From NCBI RefSeq assembly GCF_003315245.1, contig NZ_QNRT01000001.1, positions 1,211,457 through 1,275,456 on the forward strand: a stretch of 64,000 bases of DNA, in the 5' to 3' direction. The stretch is from Arenicella xantha. GTDB lineage: Bacteria > Pseudomonadota > Gammaproteobacteria > Arenicellales > Arenicellaceae. The stretch's first letter is position 1, and every line of letters starts with the position of its first letter. The notes beneath the pieces are model-generated. The model saw nothing but the letters and a program-made list of their open reading frames with translations. It was not told the origin of the DNA and ran no database searches. The translations under genes and the position numbers were made by a program. This document shows, piece by piece, positions 27,452 to 46,922 of this stretch.

Positions 27452-28094
27452 ATGTCGAACAAACTCAGGGGAAGACCAAATTTGCCGGCGGTGCCCACTA
27501 AATTCATGCACCGCCTTAGATTATCGATCAGGCAGAAGGGTTTAAGTGCGTCTACCGAACGAGCCTATTGCGGCTGGATAAAACGCTTTATCAAATATCA
27601 TCATTTGCTTCATCCAGTTGATATGAGTCAGCGAGACGTCGAGCAGTTCCTTCATCACATCGTTACGGTAGAGAATGTATCTATTAATTCCCAAAAATCA
27701 GCACTTAATGCGTAAGCCTTTTTGTTCAATCAATTTCTGCAGAAGCCTCTAAGCAAGCTCAACTTTACACCAGCCAAGCTTGGTCCCAAAATTCCGGTGG
27801 TGCTTTCCGAGCTGGAGGCTAAAACGGTAATTGATTCTTTAGCATCGCCCAATAAATTAGTGGTTCAACTACTTTATGGTAGTGGGCTGAGGCTAGGTGA
27901 GGCACTTTCTCTGAGACTCAAAGAGATAGATTTTGAGGCTAATCGGCTTTGCATCGCAAAGAGTAAAGGCGGGAACCAATATACGAGTAATCCAAGAACT
28001 ACTTGGTCACGCAAGTGTGTCGACCACCGAAATCTATACGCATGTACTTTATAAACATGGCGCGAGAATTCGTAGCCCGATAGACGCACTGTAA
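27452..28094 (+). pseudogene. intI: Integron integrase (IntI-type tyrosine recombinase), inactivated
   Basis: The N-terminal SAM-like domain (FMHRLRLSIRQKGLSASTERAYCGWIKRFIKYH) and HPVDMSQRDVEQFLHHIVTVENVS are typical of IntI. Codon 88 is TAA (27713-27715) in the same frame as the continuing homology (AFLFNQFLQKPL), so it is a nonsense mutation, probably from TTA. The first catalytic Arg region (LLYGSGLRLGEALSLR) follows; then the frame breaks near 27970 and resumes as [23 protein letters not shown], the GH and Tyr end. The span is 643 bp against about 960-1010 for intact genes, so roughly 100 codons are missing, including the box II HxxR and the IntI-specific insertion. No active product is possible. 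Confidence 0.9.
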
Positions 28095-28174: not shown

Positions 28175-28960
28175 ATGAAAATCCGTGCTTTACATCCCCT
28201 TCTCTTAGTAGTTTTGCTGCTTGGCTTTAACAATCTCTATGCAAACGAAGATAAACCCACAGTGGCCTCCGAAGCGCATTTAGGCAAACCTAAGGTAATT
28301 ATTTTCGACGTTAACGAAACCTTGCTCGACCTCGAAAGCATGCGTAAATCTGTTGGCGCGGCAATTGGTGGGCGAGATGATTTATTACCATTGTGGTTCT
28401 CGACTATGCTCCATCACTCATTGGTTGTTTCAGCGACCGGTGAATACGAGAGCTTTGGCAATATTGGTGTAGCGGCTTTGCAAATGGTGGCCGAAATTAA
28501 TGGCATAGAAATCACTCAAGACAATGCCAAAACCGCTATTTTGACACCGCTCCGCTCGCTGCCGCCGCATGCCGATGTGGCACAAGGTTTGGCTAAACTA
28601 AAAGCCCAAGGTTATAAGCTGGTGACATTAACCAATTCGTCGTTAAAGGGTGTGCAACTACAACTCGAGAATGCTGGATTGAGTCAGTATTTCGACGCTA
28701 ATTTGAGCATTGAATCAGTAGGCGTATTTAAACCGCATCTGAGCACTTATCAATGGGCCATCAAAGACCTAGGCGTTAATGCTGATGAAGCCTTAATGGT
28801 CGCGGCTCATGGTTGGGATATCGCAGGCGCTAGCAAAGCCGGCTTACAAACAGCGTTTATTCATCGACAAGGTAAAGTGTTATTCCCGCTGGCCGCAAAG
28901 CCTGATTACAATGTGTTAGACGTAAATGAATTAGCGAGCACATTAGCTCAGCTCAAGTAA
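28175..28960 (+). CDS. Exported HAD-family hydrolase, haloacid dehalogenase type II-like
   Basis: 261 residues. A signal peptide (about 1-23) precedes a HAD domain: the nucleophile Asp45 in VIIFDVNETLLDL, the Thr/Ser motif VTLTNSS, the Lys in VGVFKPH and the terminal MVAAHGWDIAGA acidic motif. The overall plan matches L-2-haloacid dehalogenase, usually cytoplasmic, so the signal peptide is notable. Substrate unconfirmed. It starts 80 bp after the integrase remnant and is probably the first normal chromosomal gene beyond the integron. Confidence 0.88.
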   Translation: MKIRALHPLLLVVLLLGFNNLYANEDKPTVASEAHLGKPKVIIFDVNETLLDLESMRKSVGAAIGGRDDLLPLWFSTMLHHSLVVSATGEYESFGNIGVAALQMVAEINGIEITQDNAKTAILTPLRSLPPHADVAQGLAKLKAQGYKLVTLTNSSLKGVQLQLENAGLSQYFDANLSIESVGVFKPHLSTYQWAIKDLGVNADEALMVAAHGWDIAGASKAGLQTAFIHRQGKVLFPLAAKPDYNVLDVNELASTLAQLK

Positions 28961-29224
28961 AAATTAACGAGCGCCAGAGCACGCTTTTCTTAAGCGGGAC
29001 CCAAGCTTGAAATAACTGCTCTGCCGCCACCACATTGACAGCACAACATAAAACCATTCCTAGCAAAATAGTTCGCTCACTAAACTCCGCTAACCTGCAA
29101 ATCACCGCTGTCTGATGTTGGTTGCCCAACAACCATTAACACCAATACCGGCAATGCTCGGCATTAAAATTCGCCTTAGCTATTTAATTCAATTTGCGTT
29201 ACATTTCCTTGGCCTCAGAATTCA

Positions 29225-29350
29225 TTCAATGTTTCTGAGCTTTAGCAGGGGAAGCTGGTGAGAATCCAGCACTGACGCGCAACGGTAATGTGACCGGTTT
29301 AACAGAGATTAAGCCGTGAACACAAAGTCCGACTACCTGCAAACTTAAGT
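29225..29350 (+). promoter_or_regulatory. Cobalamin riboswitch
   Basis: The element contains GGTGAGAATCCAGCACTGACGCGCAACGGTAA around 29259-29288, covering the conserved core and B12 box, and AGTCCGACTACCTGC at 29328-29342, the 3' conserved part. The 158 bp from there to the CobN-like gene would hold the expression platform. Cobalamin binding should reduce expression of the operon. Confidence 0.92.
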
Positions 29351-29507
29351 AAGTTGCCTCGCGAAACGGCCAGTTCTAGCATACTCGTTATTGCTTTGTT
29401 GAAAGCACAACGCTGTTGCTCCTAGCTATTTTTCAAGGATTGTTAATGTAGCTTGATCGCGTTTGTCACCGATAGACGGATCAACAGAATAGTTGGTGTC
29501 TCGCCTT

Positions 29508-32500
29508 ATGGTTGTTGTTCGTCACATTTTGAAACGTCAAGTTTGGAAGTTTCTAGTCACAAAATTTATTCTCATCAGCTTGCTGTGTTTTTCTAATGCA
29601 GTGTCTGCAGTCAATATTCTAGCGGTTGTGTCACCGCGTAACACAGCCGATGTATTAAGTGGCGCGCATCAGTTTTTACGTGAAAACCCTACGCACAAAA
29701 TAATTTTACGCACCACCGATCAGTTCAGTGATTTGCCCGAAGCGAAGCGTCGCGAGCTACTTAGCGCAGCCGACATCGTATTTGTTGGCGGTGTATTTGG
29801 CGACCCAGTTAACACGTTCGAGCGCTATGTCGCTGATGCAAAACTAATAAAATCATTTGTTGCGGTACACAGTGATCGAAAACTAGTGACCGCTTCGCAC
29901 CGCAATCAGCAATCCATGCTTGCGGGCGCGAATATCGACGAGCTAATGAAAGACCCACCAGCTGGGCCAAACAACGACGCAATGCAATGGTCGGCAACTA
30001 GACTCGAACAATTTTCTGAATATCGTTCATGGTTGCTTGCGAAAACATATTGGTCTGATCGCGATACCGACAATATGAACGGACTGTTTCGTCATCTCGC
30101 GGCTTTGGCTGGTGTCAGCATCTCAGTACCAACACCAACAGTACATCAACCGCTCAGAATGTTTATTGACGACAAGCCGATAGATGCACAAAACGTAGCG
30201 CTCTCTACTGATTTTAAATGGGTTGCCATTGTCGATTACGAAACCGGCGGTCGCCCTGGTGAACGTGCTTTAATCGACCAGATCTGTGGTGAACTCAGCG
30301 CTAAAACCCTAGATGGCGAAGTGAAATGCCTGCGCGTACTCGCAAAATGGGGCGCTCCCACAGTGCGCGCCGTCGAATTATTGGCGCAGCAAAAAGGTCG
30401 ACTGTCGGCCATCGTGTCACTGCAAAACTTTGTGCTTGGTGGTGGTGATGGTCGCGCGGCGGTCAATGCGTCGCTGGCCGAACTCGGTGTTCCAGTAATA
30501 AAGGGCTTACGTTTAACCGATGTAACCGCCGATGAGTGGCGCGTCTCCGAAGAAGGGTTGCGCTGGGACAGCGTGCATTACCGAGTAGCGATGCCTGAGT
30601 TACAAGGTGTATCACAGCCCTTGGTGGTTGCGGCCATGACGAGCGCTTCGATTGACCCACAAACCGGCGTCAAGCTGGCACTCTCCAAACCAATAGAATC
30701 GCAGGTATCACTATTGTCGCGACGGGTTAAGCGGTGGATCACGCTGCAAACTAAAGCCAATAGCGACAAAAAAATCGCCATCATCTATTACAACCATCCC
30801 CCGGGGCGACACAATATTGGTGCCGATAACCTCAATGTGCCCGAGTCATTGCTGGGCATTTTAACCCACTTAAAACGCCAAGGTTACGACACTGGCGAGC
30901 TTCCTAAAACACGCCAAGCACTGCTCGACCTTTTGCAAGACCGTGGCGTCAATCTGCCTGAAGATCGCGGCGCTTTAGCGGCAATGTCCAACAAAGTTAC
31001 GACAATATCGGCACCACAGTATCAGCAATGGTTTGACGAGCTACCGCCACTAATTCAAGACGAAATGCAGAACGGCCCACTCGGCTATCTACACGTAATG
31101 CTGAAAACGGCGATGACGTTTGACGACCCTGAAACGGCGCAACGCCTCGTGCGGCGTGTTAGTGAAGACCTAAAACACGCGCTCGAAGGCGCCGACCATG
31201 CCGCGCGTGACCGAGTTATTGACCTATTAGCTCAGCTTCAGACGGTATATCAATCATCCAAGGTTGATTGGAATCAGGCCGAACGATTAACCAACGCGAT
31301 TGCTGAAAGTGGCATCGAAGGCCTTCGCGGTTGGGGGCAAGCGCCGGGCAAGGTGATGGTGCATAACAACGAACTGTTGATTCCAGGCATTCAGTTTGGC
31401 AATGTCTTTGTTGGGCCTCAACCTCCGCGTGGCTGGGAGCTTAACGAAGAGATCCTGCATGCCAACTTGTCGTTTCCGCCAACGCATCAATATCTCGCGT
31501 TTTATCAATGGCTGAGACACGACTTTCAAGCCGACGCATTAGTCCATTTAGGGCGTCATTCCACCTATGAGTTCCTACCTCGGCATCGAGTCGGCATGGG
31601 CGAGGTTGATTATCCTTTGGCGCTAATTGATGATCTGCCAAGTGTCTACCCATATATCGTAGACGGAGTCGGCGAAGGTATTCAAGCTAAACGACGTGGC
31701 TTGGCGGTCATGGTTGATCATTTAACGCCGCCGCTAGAAAGCACGGAGTTGTATGACCGCCTACTTGAGCTGCGGCAATTGGTCGAGAGCTATGAAACCG
31801 CGCCAGAAGCGGCCGGTGCCATGCGGCATCGGGCAATTGTGGCGATTAAGCAACTGGTTGACGAGTTAAAACTGAGTGACGAGCTCACCAAAAGTATGGA
31901 AGGCGAGCTAGAAATTCGCGGGGTTAGCGCTTATGACCAAGTTGACGACGAATTACTGGTGCACGAAGTTGGCCACTATTTAACCAAGTTACAAGAAGAC
32001 TTTATGCCACTCGGTCTGCACTCCTTTGGGCAAGACTGGTCGCCGCAAGCCATTTCAACCATGCTGACCTCAATGCAGCAAGGCGGCGAGCGTGGCGCAG
32101 ATTGGCACACCAAGCTTAGCCGTTCGCCACAAGCTGAAATGCAAGCACTCGAGAACGGGTTAAATGGTCACTATGTGCAGCCAGGTAAAGGCAATGACCC
32201 CATTAGAACTCCCGAAGTACTACCAACAGGTCGTAACTTTTATGCTCTAGATGGCGGCTTAATTCCGTCTCGTTTGGGCTACGAGGTCGGCGTTGAGTTG
32301 GCGACTAAAGCGCGTTCATTAACACACACTAACGAGACGACCGAGTCAGACGCGATTGTACTGTGGGCATCGGATGTTGTGCGAGATGAAGGCGCAATGA
32401 TCGCCTTCGGTTTTGATATGCTGGGTATCAAACCGGTGTGGAGTAGTCGTGGCATCGTGCAGCGCCTTGAGCGTTTGGATATTGCCAACTTGACCGAAAA

Positions 32501-33875
32501 TGGCGCGCCGCGAACTCGGCGCGATACCTTATACACCACCTCGGGGCTGTTTCGTGATCTGTATGGCGCCCACATTGCCTGGTTGGAACAAGCCGTGCTA
32601 ATGGCCTTAGATGCTTCATCCGATGAAATTCGCAGTCGTTATCCGGCGCTGTCCTTAGCATTAAATGCTGCGCTGTCACCGCTGGGCGAATTACAGAACC
32701 CGGGTAAAGAACCACTCGCAATCAATCACGTTGCCAAACAATGGGTAGCCGATGCGCGAGCAAACTTGCAGGCGGGTATTTCCGCCGAATTAGCTGGTCG
32801 ACAAGCTACTTACCGGATATTTGGAGATGCGCCAGGCGCGTACGGCGCTGGCGTAAATCGCATGGTCGAACGCTCGGGTAGCTGGCAACATCGCTCTGAA
32901 ATTGGCGCCGTGTATTTACGCCGTATGGGCCATGCCTATGGCGCTACGTTGCACGGCGAACCCCAGCAAGGGTTGTTCAAACGGCGAATCAGCCAAGTGG
33001 GCAACACTTATTTAGGGCGCTCGAGCAATCTATATGGCTTGCTTGATAACAACGACACCTTTGATTATCTCGGTGGATTGAGTTTGGCGGTCGAGACAAC
33101 TAAAGGCCGAGTACCGGAGAACTTTATATTGGCGCACGCCGATAGCACTAAAATATCGGTTGAGCCTCTGAGTGTGGCTTTATTGTCTGAACTTCGCGGA
33201 CGCTTCCTTAATCCGCAATGGTTAACGCCATTAATGGATGAAGGCTATGCCGGTGCGCGCACCATGGGCAGTGAATTTTTTGAGTATCTATGGGGTTGGC
33301 AAGTGACCAACCCAGATGTGGTCAAGTCTTGGGTTTGGGATGACGTTAAGTCGGTGTATATCGACGACAAGCATCAGATTGGCTTGAGTGACTTTCTACA
33401 ACAGAATCATAATGTGCATGTTAAAAGCAATATGTTGGCAGTCATGCTTGTTGCCGCACAAAAACAATTCTGGCAAGCCGACGAAGCCACCCTTAGGCAA
33501 CTTTCGGCCCAATTTGCCGAACTTATTATTCAACATGGCTTACCCGGTAGTGGGCATACCTCACCAAACAATCCGGTCTTCGATTTTCTTAAAGACCATG
33601 TTTCGGAACAACAATTCGCACAAGTTCAGCAGGTATTGGATGCCGCACGGGTCGACTCAAGCGTGGCCTCCGCACCATCAACCATATCCGAACTCAAAGA
33701 AGCAGACCTAGCGCCGGCACAACAAGCCGATAGCAACAACCAACAGGCTCAACAAGCCGATCAATCACAAACCGTGTTTCAGGACTATCGTTGGTTAATC
33801 TTGCTGTTTGTCTGTCTGATTGCAGTGGGCATTATTCGCGGCATGCGAACGCCTAAGATTAACAATAAGGATTAA
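29508..33875 (+). CDS. Exported, membrane-anchored CobN-like chelatase
   Basis: 1455 residues, a full-length CobN/ChlH-type magnesium/cobalt chelatase large subunit. Landmarks include NILAVVSPRNTADVL at the mature start, the PPGRHNIGADNLNVPESL block and the GLHSFGQ region. Unlike cytoplasmic CobN it begins with a signal peptide (ends SNAVSA, about residue 34) and ends with a Gln-rich linker and one membrane helix (YRWLILLFVCLIAVGIIRG), so the body should face the periplasm. The start is uncertain: TTG 29493 is also in frame. No cobS/cobT ATPase genes are nearby. Regulated by the cobalamin riboswitch; probably acts on cobalamin or a metal-tetrapyrrole. Confidence 0.85.
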   Translation: MVVVRHILKRQVWKFLVTKFILISLLCFSNAVSAVNILAVVSPRNTADVLSGAHQFLRENPTHKIILRTTDQFSDLPEAKRRELLSAADIVFVGGVFGDPVNTFERYVADAKLIKSFVAVHSDRKLVTASHRNQQSMLAGANIDELMKDPPAGPNNDAMQWSATRLEQFSEYRSWLLAKTYWSDRDTDNMNGLFRHLAALAGVSISVPTPTVHQPLRMFIDDKPIDAQNVALSTDFKWVAIVDYETGGRPGERALIDQICGELSAKTLDGEVKCLRVLAKWGAPTVRAVELLAQQKGRLSAIVSLQNFVLGGGDGRAAVNASLAELGVPVIKGLRLTDVTADEWRVSEEGLRWDSVHYRVAMPELQGVSQPLVVAAMTSASIDPQTGVKLALSKPIESQVSLLSRRVKRWITLQTKANSDKKIAIIYYNHPPGRHNIGADNLNVPESLLGILTHLKRQGYDTGELPKTRQALLDLLQDRGVNLPEDRGALAAMSNKVTTISAPQYQQWFDELPPLIQDEMQNGPLGYLHVMLKTAMTFDDPETAQRLVRRVSEDLKHALEGADHAARDRVIDLLAQLQTVYQSSKVDWNQAERLTNAIAESGIEGLRGWGQAPGKVMVHNNELLIPGIQFGNVFVGPQPPRGWELNEEILHANLSFPPTHQYLAFYQWLRHDFQADALVHLGRHSTYEFLPRHRVGMGEVDYPLALIDDLPSVYPYIVDGVGEGIQAKRRGLAVMVDHLTPPLESTELYDRLLELRQLVESYETAPEAAGAMRHRAIVAIKQLVDELKLSDELTKSMEGELEIRGVSAYDQVDDELLVHEVGHYLTKLQEDFMPLGLHSFGQDWSPQAISTMLTSMQQGGERGADWHTKLSRSPQAEMQALENGLNGHYVQPGKGNDPIRTPEVLPTGRNFYALDGGLIPSRLGYEVGVELATKARSLTHTNETTESDAIVLWASDVVRDEGAMIAFGFDMLGIKPVWSSRGIVQRLERLDIANLTENGAPRTRRDTLYTTSGLFRDLYGAHIAWLEQAVLMALDASSDEIRSRYPALSLALNAALSPLGELQNPGKEPLAINHVAKQWVADARANLQAGISAELAGRQATYRIFGDAPGAYGAGVNRMVERSGSWQHRSEIGAVYLRRMGHAYGATLHGEPQQGLFKRRISQVGNTYLGRSSNLYGLLDNNDTFDYLGGLSLAVETTKGRVPENFILAHADSTKISVEPLSVALLSELRGRFLNPQWLTPLMDEGYAGARTMGSEFFEYLWGWQVTNPDVVKSWVWDDVKSVYIDDKHQIGLSDFLQQNHNVHVKSNMLAVMLVAAQKQFWQADEATLRQLSAQFAELIIQHGLPGSGHTSPNNPVFDFLKDHVSEQQFAQVQQVLDAARVDSSVASAPSTISELKEADLAPAQQADSNNQQAQQADQSQTVFQDYRWLILLFVCLIAVGIIRGMRTPKINNKD

Positions 33876-33880
33876 ACGCT

Positions 33881-34336
33881 ATGACTAATACGATGTTCGA
33901 CGGATCTCTATTCGGCATTATGCACGCGCTGGTGAGCTACCTACTGCAACCGGTGGTGATTGCATTACTTGCCTTAACCGCCTGGGCCGCGATTGAGGTT
34001 GGCACATTGTTCACCGAACGCTTTATTGGCCTACAGCGTTGGCGTAAAAGTGGTGCGATCGATGAGCTGGAGTTATTGGCCGCAAAACGAATTGAGCGCA
34101 CCGACTTTCTGACGCGAATAGCACCAATGCTGGGATTGATGGGCACGCTAATACCGCTGGGCCCAGGCTTAGCCGCGCTCGGCGAAGGCGAACTCAGCGT
34201 GTTGACTACGGCCATGAGCGTGGCATTCGACACCACCGTGCTTGGGCTGTTAGTCGGTATTGTAGGCTTTGTTGCAGGACGTTTGCGACGGCGCTGGTAT
34301 GAGCAAACCTTGTCGCAGATGGAAGCGAATCGTTAG
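33881..34336 (+). CDS. ExbB/TolQ/MotA-type proton-channel protein
   Basis: 151 residues, shorter than ExbB (about 240). Three membrane segments; the second and third are linked by RIAPMLGLMGTLIPLGPGLAALGEGELSVLTTAMSVAFDTTVLGLLVG, the diagnostic MotA/TolQ/ExbB block. Starts 5 bp after the CobN-like gene and is followed 3 bp later by DUF2149, so all three are one operon. In homologues the pair of this protein and an ExbD-like partner uses the proton gradient to drive an envelope protein. Confidence 0.9.
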   Translation: MTNTMFDGSLFGIMHALVSYLLQPVVIALLALTAWAAIEVGTLFTERFIGLQRWRKSGAIDELELLAAKRIERTDFLTRIAPMLGLMGTLIPLGPGLAALGEGELSVLTTAMSVAFDTTVLGLLVGIVGFVAGRLRRRWYEQTLSQMEANR

Positions 34337-34339
34337 GCC

Positions 34340-34669
34340 TTGATGATGTCGACTAATAAGCAACGAAAATGGTCAGCTAACCGCTTTGACCCTCAAGACG
34401 AAGAGCCCTTAGGCCCGCTGGCTAACTTACTCGACCTTATGTTGGTGTTTGCCTGCGGTTTAATCGCCGCCTTAATCAGTATGAGCAACAATGTGAACGA
34501 GCACTTTGATCAAACTCAAGCGCCACAACGAATCGTCGAACAAGGCCGAGAACTACCGCAAATGCCAAGCCAAGGCGAAGCATCTGGGCAAGGCTATGAG
34601 TCAGTAGGACAAGTCTACCGAGACCCAAAAACCGGCAAACTAATTTTGATCGGCAAGTCAGCACAGTGA
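34340..34669 (+). CDS. DUF2149 protein with an ExbD-like membrane segment
   Basis: 109 residues: a short cytoplasmic start, one membrane helix (about residues 27-48), and a periplasmic tail ending in GQVYRDPKTGKLILIG, the conserved DUF2149 end. The helix begins ANLLDLMLVFACGL with Asp31, closely resembling the functional Asp-containing helix of ExbD (pattern IDVMLVLL). I infer it replaces ExbD beside the ExbB-type protein. It completes the cobalamin-riboswitch operon. Confidence 0.82.
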   Translation: MMMSTNKQRKWSANRFDPQDEEPLGPLANLLDLMLVFACGLIAALISMSNNVNEHFDQTQAPQRIVEQGRELPQMPSQGEASGQGYESVGQVYRDPKTGKLILIGKSAQ

Positions 34670-34889: not shown

Positions 34890-35015
34890 AAGGCACCCAG
34901 GGGGTGGCTGAACCGAATCAGCCTGAGATTTGCCTAGTTAAATGTTCTTTGGAACGGTGGCATAAACCCCATGAACCTGATCCGGTTAACACCGGCGTAG
35001 GGATGGGAATAACGT
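34890..35015 (+). promoter_or_regulatory. TPP (thiamine) riboswitch
   Basis: GGGGTGGCTGAA at 34900-34911, CTGAGA at 34923-34928, and the 3' half CCCCATGAACCTGATCCGG followed by CGGCGTAGGGA are the conserved TPP aptamer elements. A hairpin CGTTCT/AGAACG directly follows at about 35013-35026. The TonB-receptor start lies about 70 bp downstream. Confidence 0.95.
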
Positions 35016-35083
35016 TCTACAGAACGCTTCACACCTCGCTCTCGCCTACCGGGTCTCATCATTTTTTTGCTGAAGAGACCAAT

Positions 35084-37219
35084 ATGAAACAACCTCTAAT
35101 AACCAGTCTGGTAAGCAGTGTATTGCTGACCTATGCTGGCACATCCTTCGCGGCGCAACCACTTGAAGAAGTAATGGTTACGGCTGAACTTATTGATAAA
35201 AGCGTGTTGGAATTACCCAATAGCGTTACCGTAGTAAGCAGTGCTCAAATTGAGCAACGTAATGCTCAGCACCTTGAAGACATTCTGAACCTCGCACCAA
35301 ATGTGAACTTTGCCACTGGCGCGTCACGCGGTCGCTTTATTCAGATACGCGGCATCGGCGAACGCAGCGAATTCCAAGACCCTATTATTAACTCAGTAGG
35401 AGTAGTCGTTGATGGTATTGACCTAACCGGTATTGCCACTGCGGCAAGCACCTTAGACGTAGACCAAATAGAGATACTGCGCGGCCCACAGGGAACGCTG
35501 TTTGGCGCCAACGCGCTTGCGGGCTTAATTAATGTGGTGTCTAACAAACCTAGTGACGAGTTTGCAGCCAACGTCAGTGTTGGACTAGAAGACTTCGGTG
35601 GGCAGCAGCTCTCTGGCTTTATTAGCGGCCCAAGCTCCGCTACCAGCGGCTACCGTTTAGCGGTGAAGCAATACAGCAGTGACGGATTCACCAACAACGT
35701 ATTCTTGGGTCGTGATGACGTTAGTGCGATAGATGAAACCACCGCTCGACTTCGATTCATTAGTGAAGTAAGCCAAGATCTGAACATAGATATGTCAGTG
35801 TTTTTAGCCGACATCGACAACGGCTATGATGCGTTCAGCTTAGACAACAATCGTGACACCTATTCCGACGAGCCAGGGTTTGATCGGCAAGAAACACGTG
35901 CCGCATCGATTCGCGCTGACTACCAGTTAAATGACACTCTCCACATTGAGGCACTTGCCAGCGTCGCTAATTCAGTTTTGGAATACAGCTACGACGAAGA
36001 CTGGAGCCACCTCGGTATTTGTGATAACACCGCTTGCGATAGCGAGTTATTTGGCTTTGATTGGTTTTACTCATCATTTGATCAATACACACGCGACAAC
36101 GACAACACCAGCATTGACCTAAAGCTAGTCTCGCAAGGCACTATCTTGAGCTGGGTTGCCGGTTTGTATCATCGTGATCAATCCATCGACTTGCTACGTG
36201 ATTACACCTATAACGATGGCCCGTTTACCAGTGCCTTTGATACCCGCAATAGCGCTGTCTATGGTCAACTGAATTTGGCACTAAATGATCAGTGGTCATT
36301 GATTACCGGCTTACGCTCTGAGCGCCGGGACGTGGAGTATACCGACAGTAATGGTGCCAATGCCGCACCGGATGAATCACTATGGGGCGGGCGTGTGGCC
36401 TTAGAGTACCGCGCTGACTCCGGTGCGTTTGTGTACGGCTTGGTGTCTCGCGGCTTCAAACCGGGCGGCTTCAATCTAGACCAAGACTTAGTTGGCGACC
36501 GTCGTGAATTTGATACTGAAACCATGGTTAATTACGAATTGGGATTCAAACACGCGCTGTATGATGATCGCCTGCAAGTGCAAGCGGCGCTGTTCTACCA
36601 AGACCGTGATGCAATTCAAACCAAGCAGTCTATTGTCAGCTCGATCGCCACTGGCGAAGTCGGTGGTGCCTGCCCGTGTGGTTTCACAGACTTTACCGAC
36701 AATGCCGCAAGTGGTTCTAACAAGGGCATCGAACTTGAACTAAACTGGGCAGCGTCTGACGCCGTGTCACTGTACACCACCGTTGGCCTGCTCGATACCG
36801 AGTTCGATGAACTACTAACCTTCGACCATGTCAATGCCGACCTTGAGAATGGCATACCGTATAACCTCGATGGTCGCGAGCAAGCCCATGCGCCTGCTTA
36901 TCAAGTTGTAATCGGTGGCCAAGTAAGCCTGTCCGACGCGTGGACGATTGGCGGCTCGATTGAAGCTAAAGACGATTTCTATTTTTCTGATCGACACGAA
37001 GCGAGATCCGATGCCTATGAATTGTTGAACCTAGAACTGACCTACCGCGCTGAGAATTGGGAGCTTGCCTTGTACGGTAAAAACCTAACCGATGAATTGG
37101 TTAAAACTCGCGGCTTTGGCAGCTTTGGTAATGACCCGCGTAAGTTCTATGAAACTGAGCCATATAACCAGTTTGGTACGCCAAGGCTGGTCGGCGTACG
37201 TGCCTCGTTTGACTTTTAG
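35084..37219 (+). CDS. TonB-dependent outer-membrane receptor, probably for thiamine
   Basis: 711 residues. A signal peptide (about 1-24, ending GTSFA) is followed by a TonB-box-like EEVMVTAE, a plug domain (RGPQGTLFGANALAGLINVVS) and a 22-strand barrel ending in the aromatic ASFDF. In-frame codons upstream of 35084 translate the riboswitch, so ATG 35084 is the start. The TPP riboswitch and the downstream thiamine genes make thiamine or a derivative the likely ligand. Confidence 0.9.
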   Translation: MKQPLITSLVSSVLLTYAGTSFAAQPLEEVMVTAELIDKSVLELPNSVTVVSSAQIEQRNAQHLEDILNLAPNVNFATGASRGRFIQIRGIGERSEFQDPIINSVGVVVDGIDLTGIATAASTLDVDQIEILRGPQGTLFGANALAGLINVVSNKPSDEFAANVSVGLEDFGGQQLSGFISGPSSATSGYRLAVKQYSSDGFTNNVFLGRDDVSAIDETTARLRFISEVSQDLNIDMSVFLADIDNGYDAFSLDNNRDTYSDEPGFDRQETRAASIRADYQLNDTLHIEALASVANSVLEYSYDEDWSHLGICDNTACDSELFGFDWFYSSFDQYTRDNDNTSIDLKLVSQGTILSWVAGLYHRDQSIDLLRDYTYNDGPFTSAFDTRNSAVYGQLNLALNDQWSLITGLRSERRDVEYTDSNGANAAPDESLWGGRVALEYRADSGAFVYGLVSRGFKPGGFNLDQDLVGDRREFDTETMVNYELGFKHALYDDRLQVQAALFYQDRDAIQTKQSIVSSIATGEVGGACPCGFTDFTDNAASGSNKGIELELNWAASDAVSLYTTVGLLDTEFDELLTFDHVNADLENGIPYNLDGREQAHAPAYQVVIGGQVSLSDAWTIGGSIEAKDDFYFSDRHEARSDAYELLNLELTYRAENWELALYGKNLTDELVKTRGFGSFGNDPRKFYETEPYNQFGTPRLVGVRASFDF

Positions 37220-37390
37220 TAGTAAGCGTTAACACCGGACAAACGTATTGAATTTACTCGCAATGACTTCATCAGAATGGCATCTTCATTATATGAAAGT
37301 CATTGCGAGTTCCATACGGTGCAGAAATGCTTGTCTGCTACTAAACCAAACTCATCAATCTAATTAAATAATCGTTGGACTATTATCACT

Positions 37391-37654
37391 ATGAAACTTT
37401 CTGTCGAAATCAGCATGTACCCACTTCAAGATGAGTACCGACCCAAAATTAAAGACTTTCTAGATGTCATCAACACTTGCGAAGAAGTCGAAATTCGCTC
37501 CTCAAATATGAGTACTCGCATCTTCGGCGACTATCAGGTCGTTACCGAACTGTTAAACACGGCAATGCGTCAGTCGATGGAGAAATACGGCAAAATCGTG
37601 TTTGTCTGCAAATATTTACAGGGCGATGCACGCGAGTTAAAGGGCTATGAATAA
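37391..37654 (+). CDS. YkoF-like thiamine-binding protein
   Basis: 87 residues with the compact ferredoxin-like fold of the YkoF/MTH1187 thiamine-binding family: VEISMYPLQDEYRPKIKDFL opens and VVTELLNTAMRQSMEKYGKIVFVCKYL closes it. Small proteins like this bind thiamine or hydroxymethylpyrimidine in the cytoplasm or feed a transporter. It lies 170 bp after the receptor and 30 bp before the PnuC-type gene, so it belongs to the thiamine operon. Confidence 0.82.
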   Translation: MKLSVEISMYPLQDEYRPKIKDFLDVINTCEEVEIRSSNMSTRIFGDYQVVTELLNTAMRQSMEKYGKIVFVCKYLQGDARELKGYE

Positions 37655-37684
37655 ACCAGCACTTTTTAGCGTAGAGCGCCACTG

Positions 37685-38290
37685 ATGTCGGAATCATTAC
37701 TCGCTGCATGGCAGGCTACCTCGACACTAGAGCTGGTGTCAGTGTTATTCGGCTTGGCCTATGTGATATTGGCGGCCAAAGAAAATAGCTGGTGCTGGCC
37801 TGCGGCACTGGGCGGCACCGCAACCGCCATCTGGCTATTTTGGGACGTCAGTTTACTAATGGAGTCAGCACTCAATGTGTATTACCTAGGCATGGCGATA
37901 TTTGGTTGGTGGCAATGGCAATATGGCAGCAGCACGCACTCGCCACTGGCGATAAGTTCTTGGCACATCAAGCAGCACGCACTGGCGATTGGTTCGGTTG
38001 TGGTACTTACGCTAATCTCCGGCACCTGGTTGGCACGACACACTGAAGCCGCGTTGCCGTATGTCGATTCGTTTACCACATGGGCCGCGGTAATCACTAC
38101 CTGGATGGTGACCCGTAAAATTCTACAAAACTGGTTGTATTGGGTAGTGATCGACGCGGTGTCGGTGTGGCTATTTTGGCAGAAGGAATTGTATCTCTAC
38201 GCCTTGCTATTTGCGTTCTACACGGTGATTGCTCTTTACGGCTACCGCCATTGGCGCATTGAGTTTTTGCATGCTAAGCCAACGCCTTAA
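37685..38290 (+). CDS. pnuT: PnuC-family vitamin transporter (PnuT-like)
   Basis: 201 residues with seven membrane segments. LVSVLFGLAYVILAAKENSWCWPAALGGTATAIWLFW and YYLGMAIFGWWQW are conserved PnuC motifs. PnuC proteins move nicotinamide riboside; members under TPP riboswitches (PnuT) move thiamine by facilitated diffusion with metabolic trapping. The downstream kinase fits the trapping role. Its last 20 bases overlap the kinase gene. Confidence 0.88.
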   Translation: MSESLLAAWQATSTLELVSVLFGLAYVILAAKENSWCWPAALGGTATAIWLFWDVSLLMESALNVYYLGMAIFGWWQWQYGSSTHSPLAISSWHIKQHALAIGSVVVLTLISGTWLARHTEAALPYVDSFTTWAAVITTWMVTRKILQNWLYWVVIDAVSVWLFWQKELYLYALLFAFYTVIALYGYRHWRIEFLHAKPTP

Positions 38291-39140
38291 ACACTGGAAA
38301 GATTGGGGTTTAGCCGGCCAACCTCGTGTGCTGGAGTACTTCACTGCCGGGCAAAATCACACCGCAGCGCTAGTCGAAGCAAATCAGCAGCAATGGGTAG
38401 TTAAGCTGTTCGATCATTCATTTGATATTGCGGTGTCAGCTCAAAGCTGGGCCGCCGAACAGCAAATTGCACCACCGATAGTCTATGCAAACAATGACCT
38501 CGCGGTGATGACCTACGTAGCGGCTCGGCCTTTTGAAACAGCTGATCTAGCGAGACTGGCGCATACTTTAGGCACCTTGCACCAGTCCACTAATACTGAG
38601 CTAAGCCGCTTTGATTTCATGTCATTTTGTAATCAGTATTTAGCCACCGCTGACGCACTGACCAAGCAACAACATCGAACGCTATTACCCGTATTACAGC
38701 AGTTTATTGATGACCCCACGCCGTGGTGCCCATGTCATAACGACTTGGTGCGCAGCAATTGTTTGTTTACCAATGAACGCGCGTGGTTAATCGATTGGGA
38801 ATATGCGATGCAGCATAATCCATGGTTCGATTTAGCGGCAATAATCTTGTATTTTGAATTAGATACAAAGCAATCAACGCGCTTTCTAAACGCGTATTCA
38901 AGTGCTTACTTAAATAGTGGCTCCAGCCAAGATTCTTTGGATTGGGCCGCCAAAATTGATCAGCCTATTTTTCAAGCGGCGCAGTTAGCATTGTTATGGG
39001 GCGATTTACTGTGGCATTTAAATAAATACGGCAATCACTACCGTGTGGACAATCCGAAGCGATTTAAACTACTTGCCCACTTGGCGGCTAACTTAGCAAT
39101 TCAACTACCTAGTAGCGCGCCTAGCTCGCTCCATTTCTAA
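38271..39140 (+). CDS. Choline/aminoglycoside-kinase-fold enzyme, probable thiamine kinase
   Basis: 289 residues. CHNDLVRSNCLF is the catalytic loop (Asp, Asn) and LIDWEYAMQHNPWFDLAAI the metal-binding DFE-equivalent of the APH/choline kinase fold, resembling ThiK (YcfN). The ATG at 38271 overlaps pnuT by 20 bp; the upstream frame to 38229 is less likely. It should phosphorylate incoming thiamine, trapping it inside the cell. Strongly coupled to the operon by the overlap. Confidence 0.85.
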   Translation: MLSQRLKHWKDWGLAGQPRVLEYFTAGQNHTAALVEANQQQWVVKLFDHSFDIAVSAQSWAAEQQIAPPIVYANNDLAVMTYVAARPFETADLARLAHTLGTLHQSTNTELSRFDFMSFCNQYLATADALTKQQHRTLLPVLQQFIDDPTPWCPCHNDLVRSNCLFTNERAWLIDWEYAMQHNPWFDLAAIILYFELDTKQSTRFLNAYSSAYLNSGSSQDSLDWAAKIDQPIFQAAQLALLWGDLLWHLNKYGNHYRVDNPKRFKLLAHLAANLAIQLPSSAPSSLHF

Positions 39141-46764: not shown

Positions 46765-46807
46765 CTTTCATCTCCTGTTCTTAAATAAGAATTAAAGTTA
46801 ACGAAAA

Positions 46808-46922
46808 ATGAGCGTCGTTGCAGCTAGGCGCTAGACACTTAACTATTTAAAAAACAGCAGTACTAACGATGCTTGAGCCTGACGGGAAGGACCCGTTGCA
46901 ACGCTCCTCAAGCACTCGGCTG
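46808..46922 (-). promoter_or_regulatory. SAH riboswitch
   Basis: On the minus strand GAGGAGCGTTGCAACGGG is followed by CCCGTCAGGCTC and, after a variable loop, CAACGACGCTC, the conserved aptamer and pseudoknot parts. It lies 44 bp before the ahcY start. In known cases S-adenosylhomocysteine binding turns expression on, matching a methyl-cycle recycling operon. Confidence 0.93.

Follow-up and report, generated by a model that had tools for sequence, protein, structure and literature searches.

A candidate B12-controlled module of an exported CobN-like protein, an ExbB-type protein and DUF2149 in Arenicella xantha

CobN normally works in the cytoplasm, where it is driven with ATP by CobST, and ExbB/ExbD motors use the proton gradient to drive periplasmic proteins. 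Here, we describe a locus of the gammaproteobacterium Arenicella xantha in which a CobN-like protein that is predicted to be exported is encoded together with an ExbB-type protein and a DUF2149 protein behind a cobalamin-riboswitch-like leader. The locus lies within a stretch of 64,000 nt (contig NZ_QNRT01000001.1, positions 1,211,457 to 1,275,456), which was analysed as a whole and is called the window below. At somewhat less than an even chance, we consider it best explained as a periplasmic corrinoid-processing chelatase that would be induced upon B12 starvation and powered through ExbB/DUF2149.

The closest described systems, cited here for the passages of each paper that were retrieved, already bring the three families together. 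The hmuYRSTUV operon includes CobN, MotA/TolQ/ExbB and DUF2149 proteins (PMC10434189), and PA1923-PA1925 of Pseudomonas aeruginosa combine them as well (PMC9431628), so that a previous sequence-only reading of the locus, which had called it a candidate for a poorly described system, went too far in this respect. HmuU and HmuV are taken as ExbB/ExbD for the receptor HmuR (PMC10100974; PMC12583661 agrees), and an hmu-like operon of B. fragilis stands behind a cobalamin riboswitch and serves "perhaps" for cobalamin (PMC10100974). PA1922-PA1925 belong to the Zur regulon of zinc starvation (PMC9431628, PMC4542158), and the motor beside the PA1923-type CobN has tentatively been read as a TonB energiser (PA1924; PMC4542158). 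A third CobN type with a role in salvage, BtuS, has been put forward (credited to Rodionov 2003), and its B. fragilis members BtuS1 and BtuS2 are predicted to be exported and anchored (PMC6460266). P. gingivalis HmuS has terminal helices (PMC13227078), and two BtuS copies are reported for Methanosarcina barkeri (PMC10846266). HmuS is defined by Met-79, His-254 and the "MRI" (Met-rich insertion), and the head and neck domains of the superfamily resemble periplasmic binding proteins (PMC12583661). Retrieved passages on the BtuS family contained no description of the proteobacterial and Campylobacterota clade treated here, and the titles and abstract beginnings among the matches listed contained none of a proton-driven chelatase or of this B12-controlled clade.

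Operon and cobalamin leader

The leader and the three genes form a single tight operon on the forward strand, with the following features:

29198-29358, + strand, cobalamin-riboswitch-like element (RF00174), ending ~150 nt 5′ of the ATG of the CobN-like gene
29508 (ATG) or 29493 (TTG) to 33875, + strand, CobN-like class I chelatase subunit, 1455 amino acids from the ATG
33881-34336, + strand, ExbB/TolQ-type three-helix membrane protein, 151 amino acids, PF01618
34340-34669, + strand, DUF2149 protein, PF09919, with an N-terminal transmembrane helix, a linker and a short C-terminal beta hairpin

In the list of open reading frames (ORFs), the gaps amount to 5 bp between the CobN-like and ExbB-like genes and 3 bp between the latter and DUF2149, and each product matches its family above the Pfam cut-off: PF02514 (CobN-Mg_chel) with 831 bits, PF01618 (MotA_ExbB) with 42.2 bits against a cut-off of 22.9, and PF09919 (DUF2149) with 47 bits. 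The sequence-only reading had named this spacing, a 1455-residue CobN homologue with a signal peptide and a C-terminal anchor, and a cobalamin riboswitch; all of these were recovered here, the topology by hydropathy and the riboswitch at a score under the Rfam cut-off, with a core that is conserved in relatives.

At the Rfam gathering score (31.5 bits), RF00174 was not reported in the window, and a permissive scan of the window gave the element listed above with 30.1 bits and E 1e-5 (E 1.3e-5 in a genome-wide scan). Relatives were drawn from named genomes (52 loci), a genus sample (18 genomes) and a class sample (370 genomes), and four loci were dropped before counting, L030, L031 and L032 as repeats of L052, L057 and L050, and L049 as being under the cut-off and having no CobN. 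We refer to 40 loci (L040-L048, L050-L079, L083) in which CobN, ExbB and DUF2149 are ordered as in the window as the window clade, including L058, which lies at a contig end and shows CobN alone. A cobalamin riboswitch scored above the cut-off in 32 of the 37 clade loci given to Rfam (7/7, 7/7, 4/9, 7/7 and 7/7 by batch); L075, L078 and L083 begin inside CobN and were left out. The five misses (L050, L052, L057, L058 and L059) rank among the window's nearest relatives, and all five possess the aligned riboswitch core and match a strict core pattern ~180-260 nt 5′ of CobN on the same strand. The core of the window element likewise aligns with that of the relatives and matches the pattern; the MAFFT alignment of the region is poor in its 5′ half. 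Compared with the Rfam model, this pattern is narrow and leaves many of the 32 Rfam-positive loci unmatched, and in 43 other loci it matched three times (L096, L102, L104), always at a canonical CobN. Judged from the coordinates, in 36/37 relatives the riboswitch points the same way as CobN or its operon and lies 5′ of it, the exception being L064, where it is divergent and heads a BtuM-like gene. Because the element is conserved, with 32/37 over the cut-off and the core present in the other five, a chance match in the window is very unlikely.

Seven loci outside the window clade were also given to Rfam and yielded one cobalamin riboswitch. It belongs to a Desulfobacterales locus (L085:1756-14433), where it lies upstream of an array of receptor, DUF2162, ExbB, DUF2149, CobN and CobN.

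CobN-like protein and its partners

The best solved relative of the CobN-like protein is HmuS (PDB 9d26, E 2e-108). In a tree of 54 rows, picked by hand from a larger alignment and computed by a quick method with a midpoint root, the window clade (23 rows) received a support of 100 on a long stem, apart from HmuS with the Lentisphaerota/Verrucomicrobiota and from the canonical CobN, ChlH-type, archaeal and HmuY-associated forms. All 38 window-clade rows compared here retain the superfamily His (window His684, HmuS His538), and the same 38 rows all have Asp/Asp in place of HmuS His1209 and Glu1212 (Asp1183 and Asp1186 in the window protein). At the His1209 place, Asp is found in 10/11 canonical CobN rows, L096 counted among them, His in all seven HmuS-clade rows besides HmuS, and His or Asn in the ChlH-type. 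HmuS Met79 and His254-Gly-Arg (HGR) are absent in the 12 window-clade rows compared, and the Lentisphaerota/Verrucomicrobiota rows have HGR in 4/4 and a Met at the Met79 place in 3/4. A Met-rich stretch was not found in the three regions checked, all of them in the window protein itself (Met 4/120, 3/45 and 1/115). Membership among the HmuS heme de-chelatases was rejected on these residues.

By hydropathy, rather than by a signal-peptide program, the N terminus of the window protein is signal-like and its C terminus includes a hydrophobic stretch. The latter recurs in 36/38 window-clade rows (best 17-residue mean hydropathy ≥1.6) and is absent (≤0.51) in all 15 canonical CobN/ChlH-type loci; L051 and L079 are without it because CobN is split into two ORFs there. 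Nine NCBIfam CobN/BchH models matched the window protein, each below its cut-off. The protein is predicted to be an exported, C-terminally anchored class I chelatase homologue.

For the ExbB-like protein, the structure model reached a pLDDT (predicted local distance difference test) of 93, with ExbB and TolQ as the nearest folds (probability 1.0; best E 0.026, none at E 0.001), and PF01618 was matched at E 0.001 by 36/36 aligned homologues, which places it, by prediction, in the ExbB/TolQ/MotA channel family. PF09919 was found in 39/39 aligned DUF2149 homologues, as the only Pfam family matched by them, and an Asp in the DUF2149 helix (Asp32 from the TTG start, 31 from the next ATG) is invariant in all 39.

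DUF2149 is patchy in its distribution. It was found in 4/18 genus genomes and, over the cut-off, in 18/370 class genomes; a 19th (G273) fell below, and its locus is L049, without CobN. All 18 are among the 39 class genomes with PF02514, and in every one a CobN-type gene lies within 5 kb, the CobN of L035 looking broken. The other 21 PF02514 class genomes gave no DUF2149 match, and 15 places from 14 of these (L102-L116) turned out to be canonical CobN or ChlH-type. Among the named loci, DUF2149 stands beside CobN in 45/52, the remainder being three contig ends (L058, L087, L090), the canonical L096, and L099, L097 and L101. Since several distant groups keep the trio in a different order (ExbB-DUF2149-CobN), the linkage has survived rearrangement. 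Methanosarcina acetivorans, taken as a control, matched both the DUF2149 and the CobN-type family. A regular co-occurrence of CobN-like proteins with ExbB and DUF2149 had been put forward as a check on the sequence-only reading, and these counts agree with it.

Three loci of the window's class (L033-L035) are hmu-like, with DUF2325, a receptor, an HmuY-domain protein, ExbB, CobN and DUF2149; HmuY and DUF2325 were assigned by Pfam for L034 and by clustering for the others.

Corrinoid salvage context and competing explanations

Neighbours in the 40 window-clade loci were counted by tblastn (matches of at least 60 bits) because long antisense ORFs had displaced real genes in the ORF lists of L040-L048. 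The weaker BtuD and BtuB matches (60-92 bits) are possibly generic, and the aminotransferase CobC/D, BtuD and the CobC-type phosphatase were named by similarity or inspection, without a functional model. Most frequent were BtuR (18), CobB (16), a BtuB-like receptor (15, a few weak), CbiB (13), CobC/D (12) and a BtuM-like protein (10), followed by BtuD (9, some generic), CobC phosphatase (9), CobQ (5), BtuC (4) and CN_hydrolase (4), and by CbiZ (3), TonB (2), PduO (2) and CobU (1). Colwellia loci have the order riboswitch-BtuM-CobB-CobN-ExbB-DUF2149-BtuR, and the BtuM-like neighbour matches PDB 8c7p ("Cobalamin ABC transporter"), which we take to be BtuM. In three loci (L051:6795-8953, L052:6158-8448 and L057:13198-15302), CbiZ (adenosylcobinamide amidohydrolase; by Pfam in L051 and L057, by tblastn in L052) and a nitrilase-like CN_hydrolase directly follow DUF2149. 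Because both proteins have leader-like N termini on inspection, these three loci likely encode an exported set for corrinoid side-chain processing; a leader-bearing CN_hydrolase is also present in L059. Other window-clade loci, those of Arcobacter, Methylophaga and Cellvibrionaceae among them, resemble the window in having the riboswitch and the trio alone in the tblastn test.

The window genome (4.44 Mb, 99.3% complete) has one CobN-type gene. Chelatase CobT and CobS gave no match in it, and the four AAA-type matches of Cob-chelat-sub were all under the cut-off; the absence of CobST, which the sequence-only reading had assumed, is thereby supported by a genome search. CobT and CobS are also common names for nucleotide-loop enzymes, which have nothing but the name in common with the chelatase subunits. 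Neither CobB nor CbiZ was matched in this genome. Two further cobalamin riboswitches are present, one of them ahead of a salvage operon with a BtuB-like receptor, BtuR, CobQ, a FecCD permease, CobU and CbiB (by Pfam), an ABC ATPase and an aminotransferase (by inspection), and then a dimethylbenzimidazole phosphoribosyltransferase, a periplasmic binding protein, cobalamin synthase and a phosphatase. With the salvage genes near the relatives, this operon bears out the corrinoid setting suggested previously, and the host bacteria seem to live on scavenged vitamin B12. The other riboswitch lies upstream of a two-subunit ribonucleotide reductase (L008:2304-6386).

According to our proposal, low adenosylcobalamin would allow the operon to be made through its leader, and BtuB would bring in metal-free, wrong-metal or incomplete corrinoids. 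Once in the periplasm, these would bind to the body of the CobN-like protein, and there cobalt would be inserted or the metal exchanged. The product would be imported via BtuFCD or BtuM, adenosylated by BtuR and finished by CobQ, CbiB, CobU and CobS. Ion flow through ExbB/DUF2149 would perform the conformational work otherwise done by CobST with ATP, the DUF2149 Asp serving as the carrier; the link would be either the periplasmic tail of DUF2149 or the CobN-like protein's C-terminal helix. We infer metal insertion, exchange or removal by the CobN-like protein; removal might take the place of insertion, and we favour insertion or exchange, since a leader of this kind should switch the operon on when B12 is scarce. 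The substrate is probably a corrinoid and not heme. A broader reading, in which a class I chelatase is driven by an ion gradient instead of AAA+ ATP hydrolysis, with ExbB/DUF2149 replacing CobST/ChlID, is held a shade more tentatively.

A proton motor driving the chelatase is plausible, and its best support comes from Methanosarcinales, where two loci (L089 and L092, the ExbB of the latter cut by a contig end) have ExbB and DUF2149 directly before CobN. As these archaea have no outer membrane, ExbB/DUF2149 cannot serve a TonB receptor there. This archaeal trio and the four canonical ExbD that the window genome encodes besides DUF2149 make coupling to the CobN-type protein the better reading, and motor coupling is the most likely among those stated here.

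Several observations weigh against the proposal. The window's own riboswitch stays below the Rfam cut-off, and no cobalt transporter or CobW was seen among the neighbours scanned with Pfam. Asp occupies the His1209 place in most other non-HmuS rows too, including L033/L034 beside HmuY, and for this reason Asp1183 argues against HmuS without proving a corrinoid substrate. Beside CobN, L099 has ExbB but no DUF2149, and in the ORF lists of L097 and L101 neither was found. CobQ is encoded in all 11 window-type genomes, but also in 7/7 other DUF2149 genomes, in 110/370 overall and in the same-genus genome G001, which has no PF02514 or DUF2149 match; being this common, it was set aside as weak proof that CobN feeds it. 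Chelatase activity, localisation and complex formation are all predictions.

The likeness of DUF2149 to ExbD also has to be narrowed. The low-confidence model (pLDDT 67, predicted template modelling score 0.28) shows helix 25-48 carrying Asp32 and a short hairpin alone, with no ExbD periplasmic domain; hhalign against the four ExbD of the same genome, from a shallow alignment, gave a probability of 2.8%; and a profile search of the PDB returned nine weak matches, a MotB-type on top (E 0.22). DUF2149 as a true ExbD was rejected on the two profile comparisons. Given the poor model and the non-significant profile similarity, "ExbD-like" here means one Asp-bearing helix: that part of the sequence-only reading stands, and the rest of the protein does not appear to follow it, so that the outcome named there as refuting, a DUF2149 that does not model like ExbD, has come about in part.

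The strongest competing explanation, in our view unlikely, holds that ExbB/DUF2149 is a dedicated energiser of BtuB uptake through TonB and that the CobN-like protein works alongside without a motor. It is the printed reading for HmuU/HmuV and, tentatively, for PA1924 (PMC10100974, PMC12583661, PMC4542158), and a BtuB-like receptor near 15/40 relatives, some weak, would suit it, as would a TonB gene near L040 and L047, which also tells against our proposal. However, the TonB query from L040 matched only 2/40 relatives, even if distant TonBs may have been missed, the window genome already possesses its canonical ExbD proteins, and DUF2149 lies within 5 kb of a CobN-type gene in 18/18 class-sample genomes and, in Methanosarcinales, accompanies one in cells in which such a receptor has no place.

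Rather less probable still is a CobN-like protein that acts as a non-catalytic or side-chain-processing corrinoid handler, passing corrinoids from BtuB to BtuF/BtuM or to the exported CbiZ and nitrilase-like amidase. The leader-like CbiZ and CN_hydrolase proteins described above, and the resemblance of the head and neck domains to periplasmic binding proteins (PMC12583661), would fit such a role, whereas the superfamily His is kept in 38/38 rows, and CbiZ was matched in 3/40 relatives and not in the window genome.

We regard as improbable an iron- or cobalt-gathering de-chelatase of the HmuS kind that acts on heme or another metallo-tetrapyrrole. Among solved structures HmuS is the best relative, the partner families are those of hmuU/hmuV (PMC10434189) and the topology is that of HmuS (PMC13227078), but the defining residues are missing (Met79 and HGR in 12/12, His1209 changed to Asp in 38/38, no Met-rich stretch in the window protein), the clade is separate and control is by a cobalamin riboswitch. 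Very improbable is a cytoplasmic cobaltochelatase subunit of the ordinary kind whose CobST partners are encoded elsewhere, for which the complete PF02514 domain could be cited; membership in CobNST was rejected on the signal-like N terminus and anchor, the missing CobS/CobT matches and the nine NCBIfam models under their cut-offs.

If the proposal of an ion-driven corrinoid chelatase is right, tetrapyrrole and corrinoid metal chemistry would take place outside the cytoplasm in bacteria and archaea, one machine family would have branches controlled by B12, by heme and by zinc, and some bacteria would repair or refit scavenged corrinoids outside the cytoplasm. To our knowledge, such an extracytoplasmic step is on no known map of B12 exchange. 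An ion-driven chelatase would offer an alternative to the TonB-energiser reading of the ExbB/DUF2149 partners of HmuS-type proteins, and the archaeal loci and the regular pairing open this alternative to a direct test in a B12 setting, where growth phenotypes are easy to obtain.

The window contains further features. Positions 34890-39140 hold a thiamin pyrophosphate riboswitch, a TonB-dependent receptor, a Ykof-related protein of 87 amino acids, a PnuC-type transporter and an APH-type kinase, likely a thiamin salvage set independent of the chelatase operon; the true start of the receptor is probably further in because the GTG start of the long ORF lies inside the riboswitch. An S-adenosylhomocysteine riboswitch over the Rfam cut-off lies at 46803-46915 on the - strand. 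Two ORFs at 27452-28054, probably mobile-element remains, encode the N-terminal domain of a phage-type integrase and a portion of its catalytic domain, and 28175-28960 encodes a haloacid dehalogenase type II (TIGR01428 over the cut-off) with a signal-like N terminus by inspection, an unusual location for this enzyme.

Comparison with known systems

The Bacteroidota genes hmuS-hmuT-hmuU-hmuV share with the window a CobN-type protein that is exported and anchored and encoded with ExbB-type and DUF2149 proteins. They differ in their iron and heme biology with HmuY and in hmuT between hmuS and hmuU, and HmuS differs in its clade and in Met79, HGR254 and His1209, which are missing from the window-clade rows compared, and its Met-rich insertion, missing from the window protein. 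PA1922-PA1925 present CobN-like, ExbB/ExbD-type (annotated ExbD) and DUF2149 proteins in window order with the receptor PA1922, but are Zur-controlled, and L036, which has that gene order, falls in another clade. CobNST likewise has a member of the CobN family, with an Asp at the equivalent active-site position; unlike the window protein, it is cytoplasmic and ATP-driven, has no C-terminal helix and forms a separate clade. ExbB/ExbD and TolQ/TolR share the ExbB fold and an Asp-bearing helix in the partner, whereas DUF2149 has no significant sequence similarity to ExbD and its low-confidence model no ExbD periplasmic domain. The BtuS family likewise comprises CobN homologues that are exported, anchored in the membrane and distinct from the CobN and ChlH clades, with a predicted role in salvage, although B. 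fragilis BtuS1/BtuS2 were studied for heme iron. As far as its predicted features go, the window module fits this loosely defined BtuS kind as a variant.

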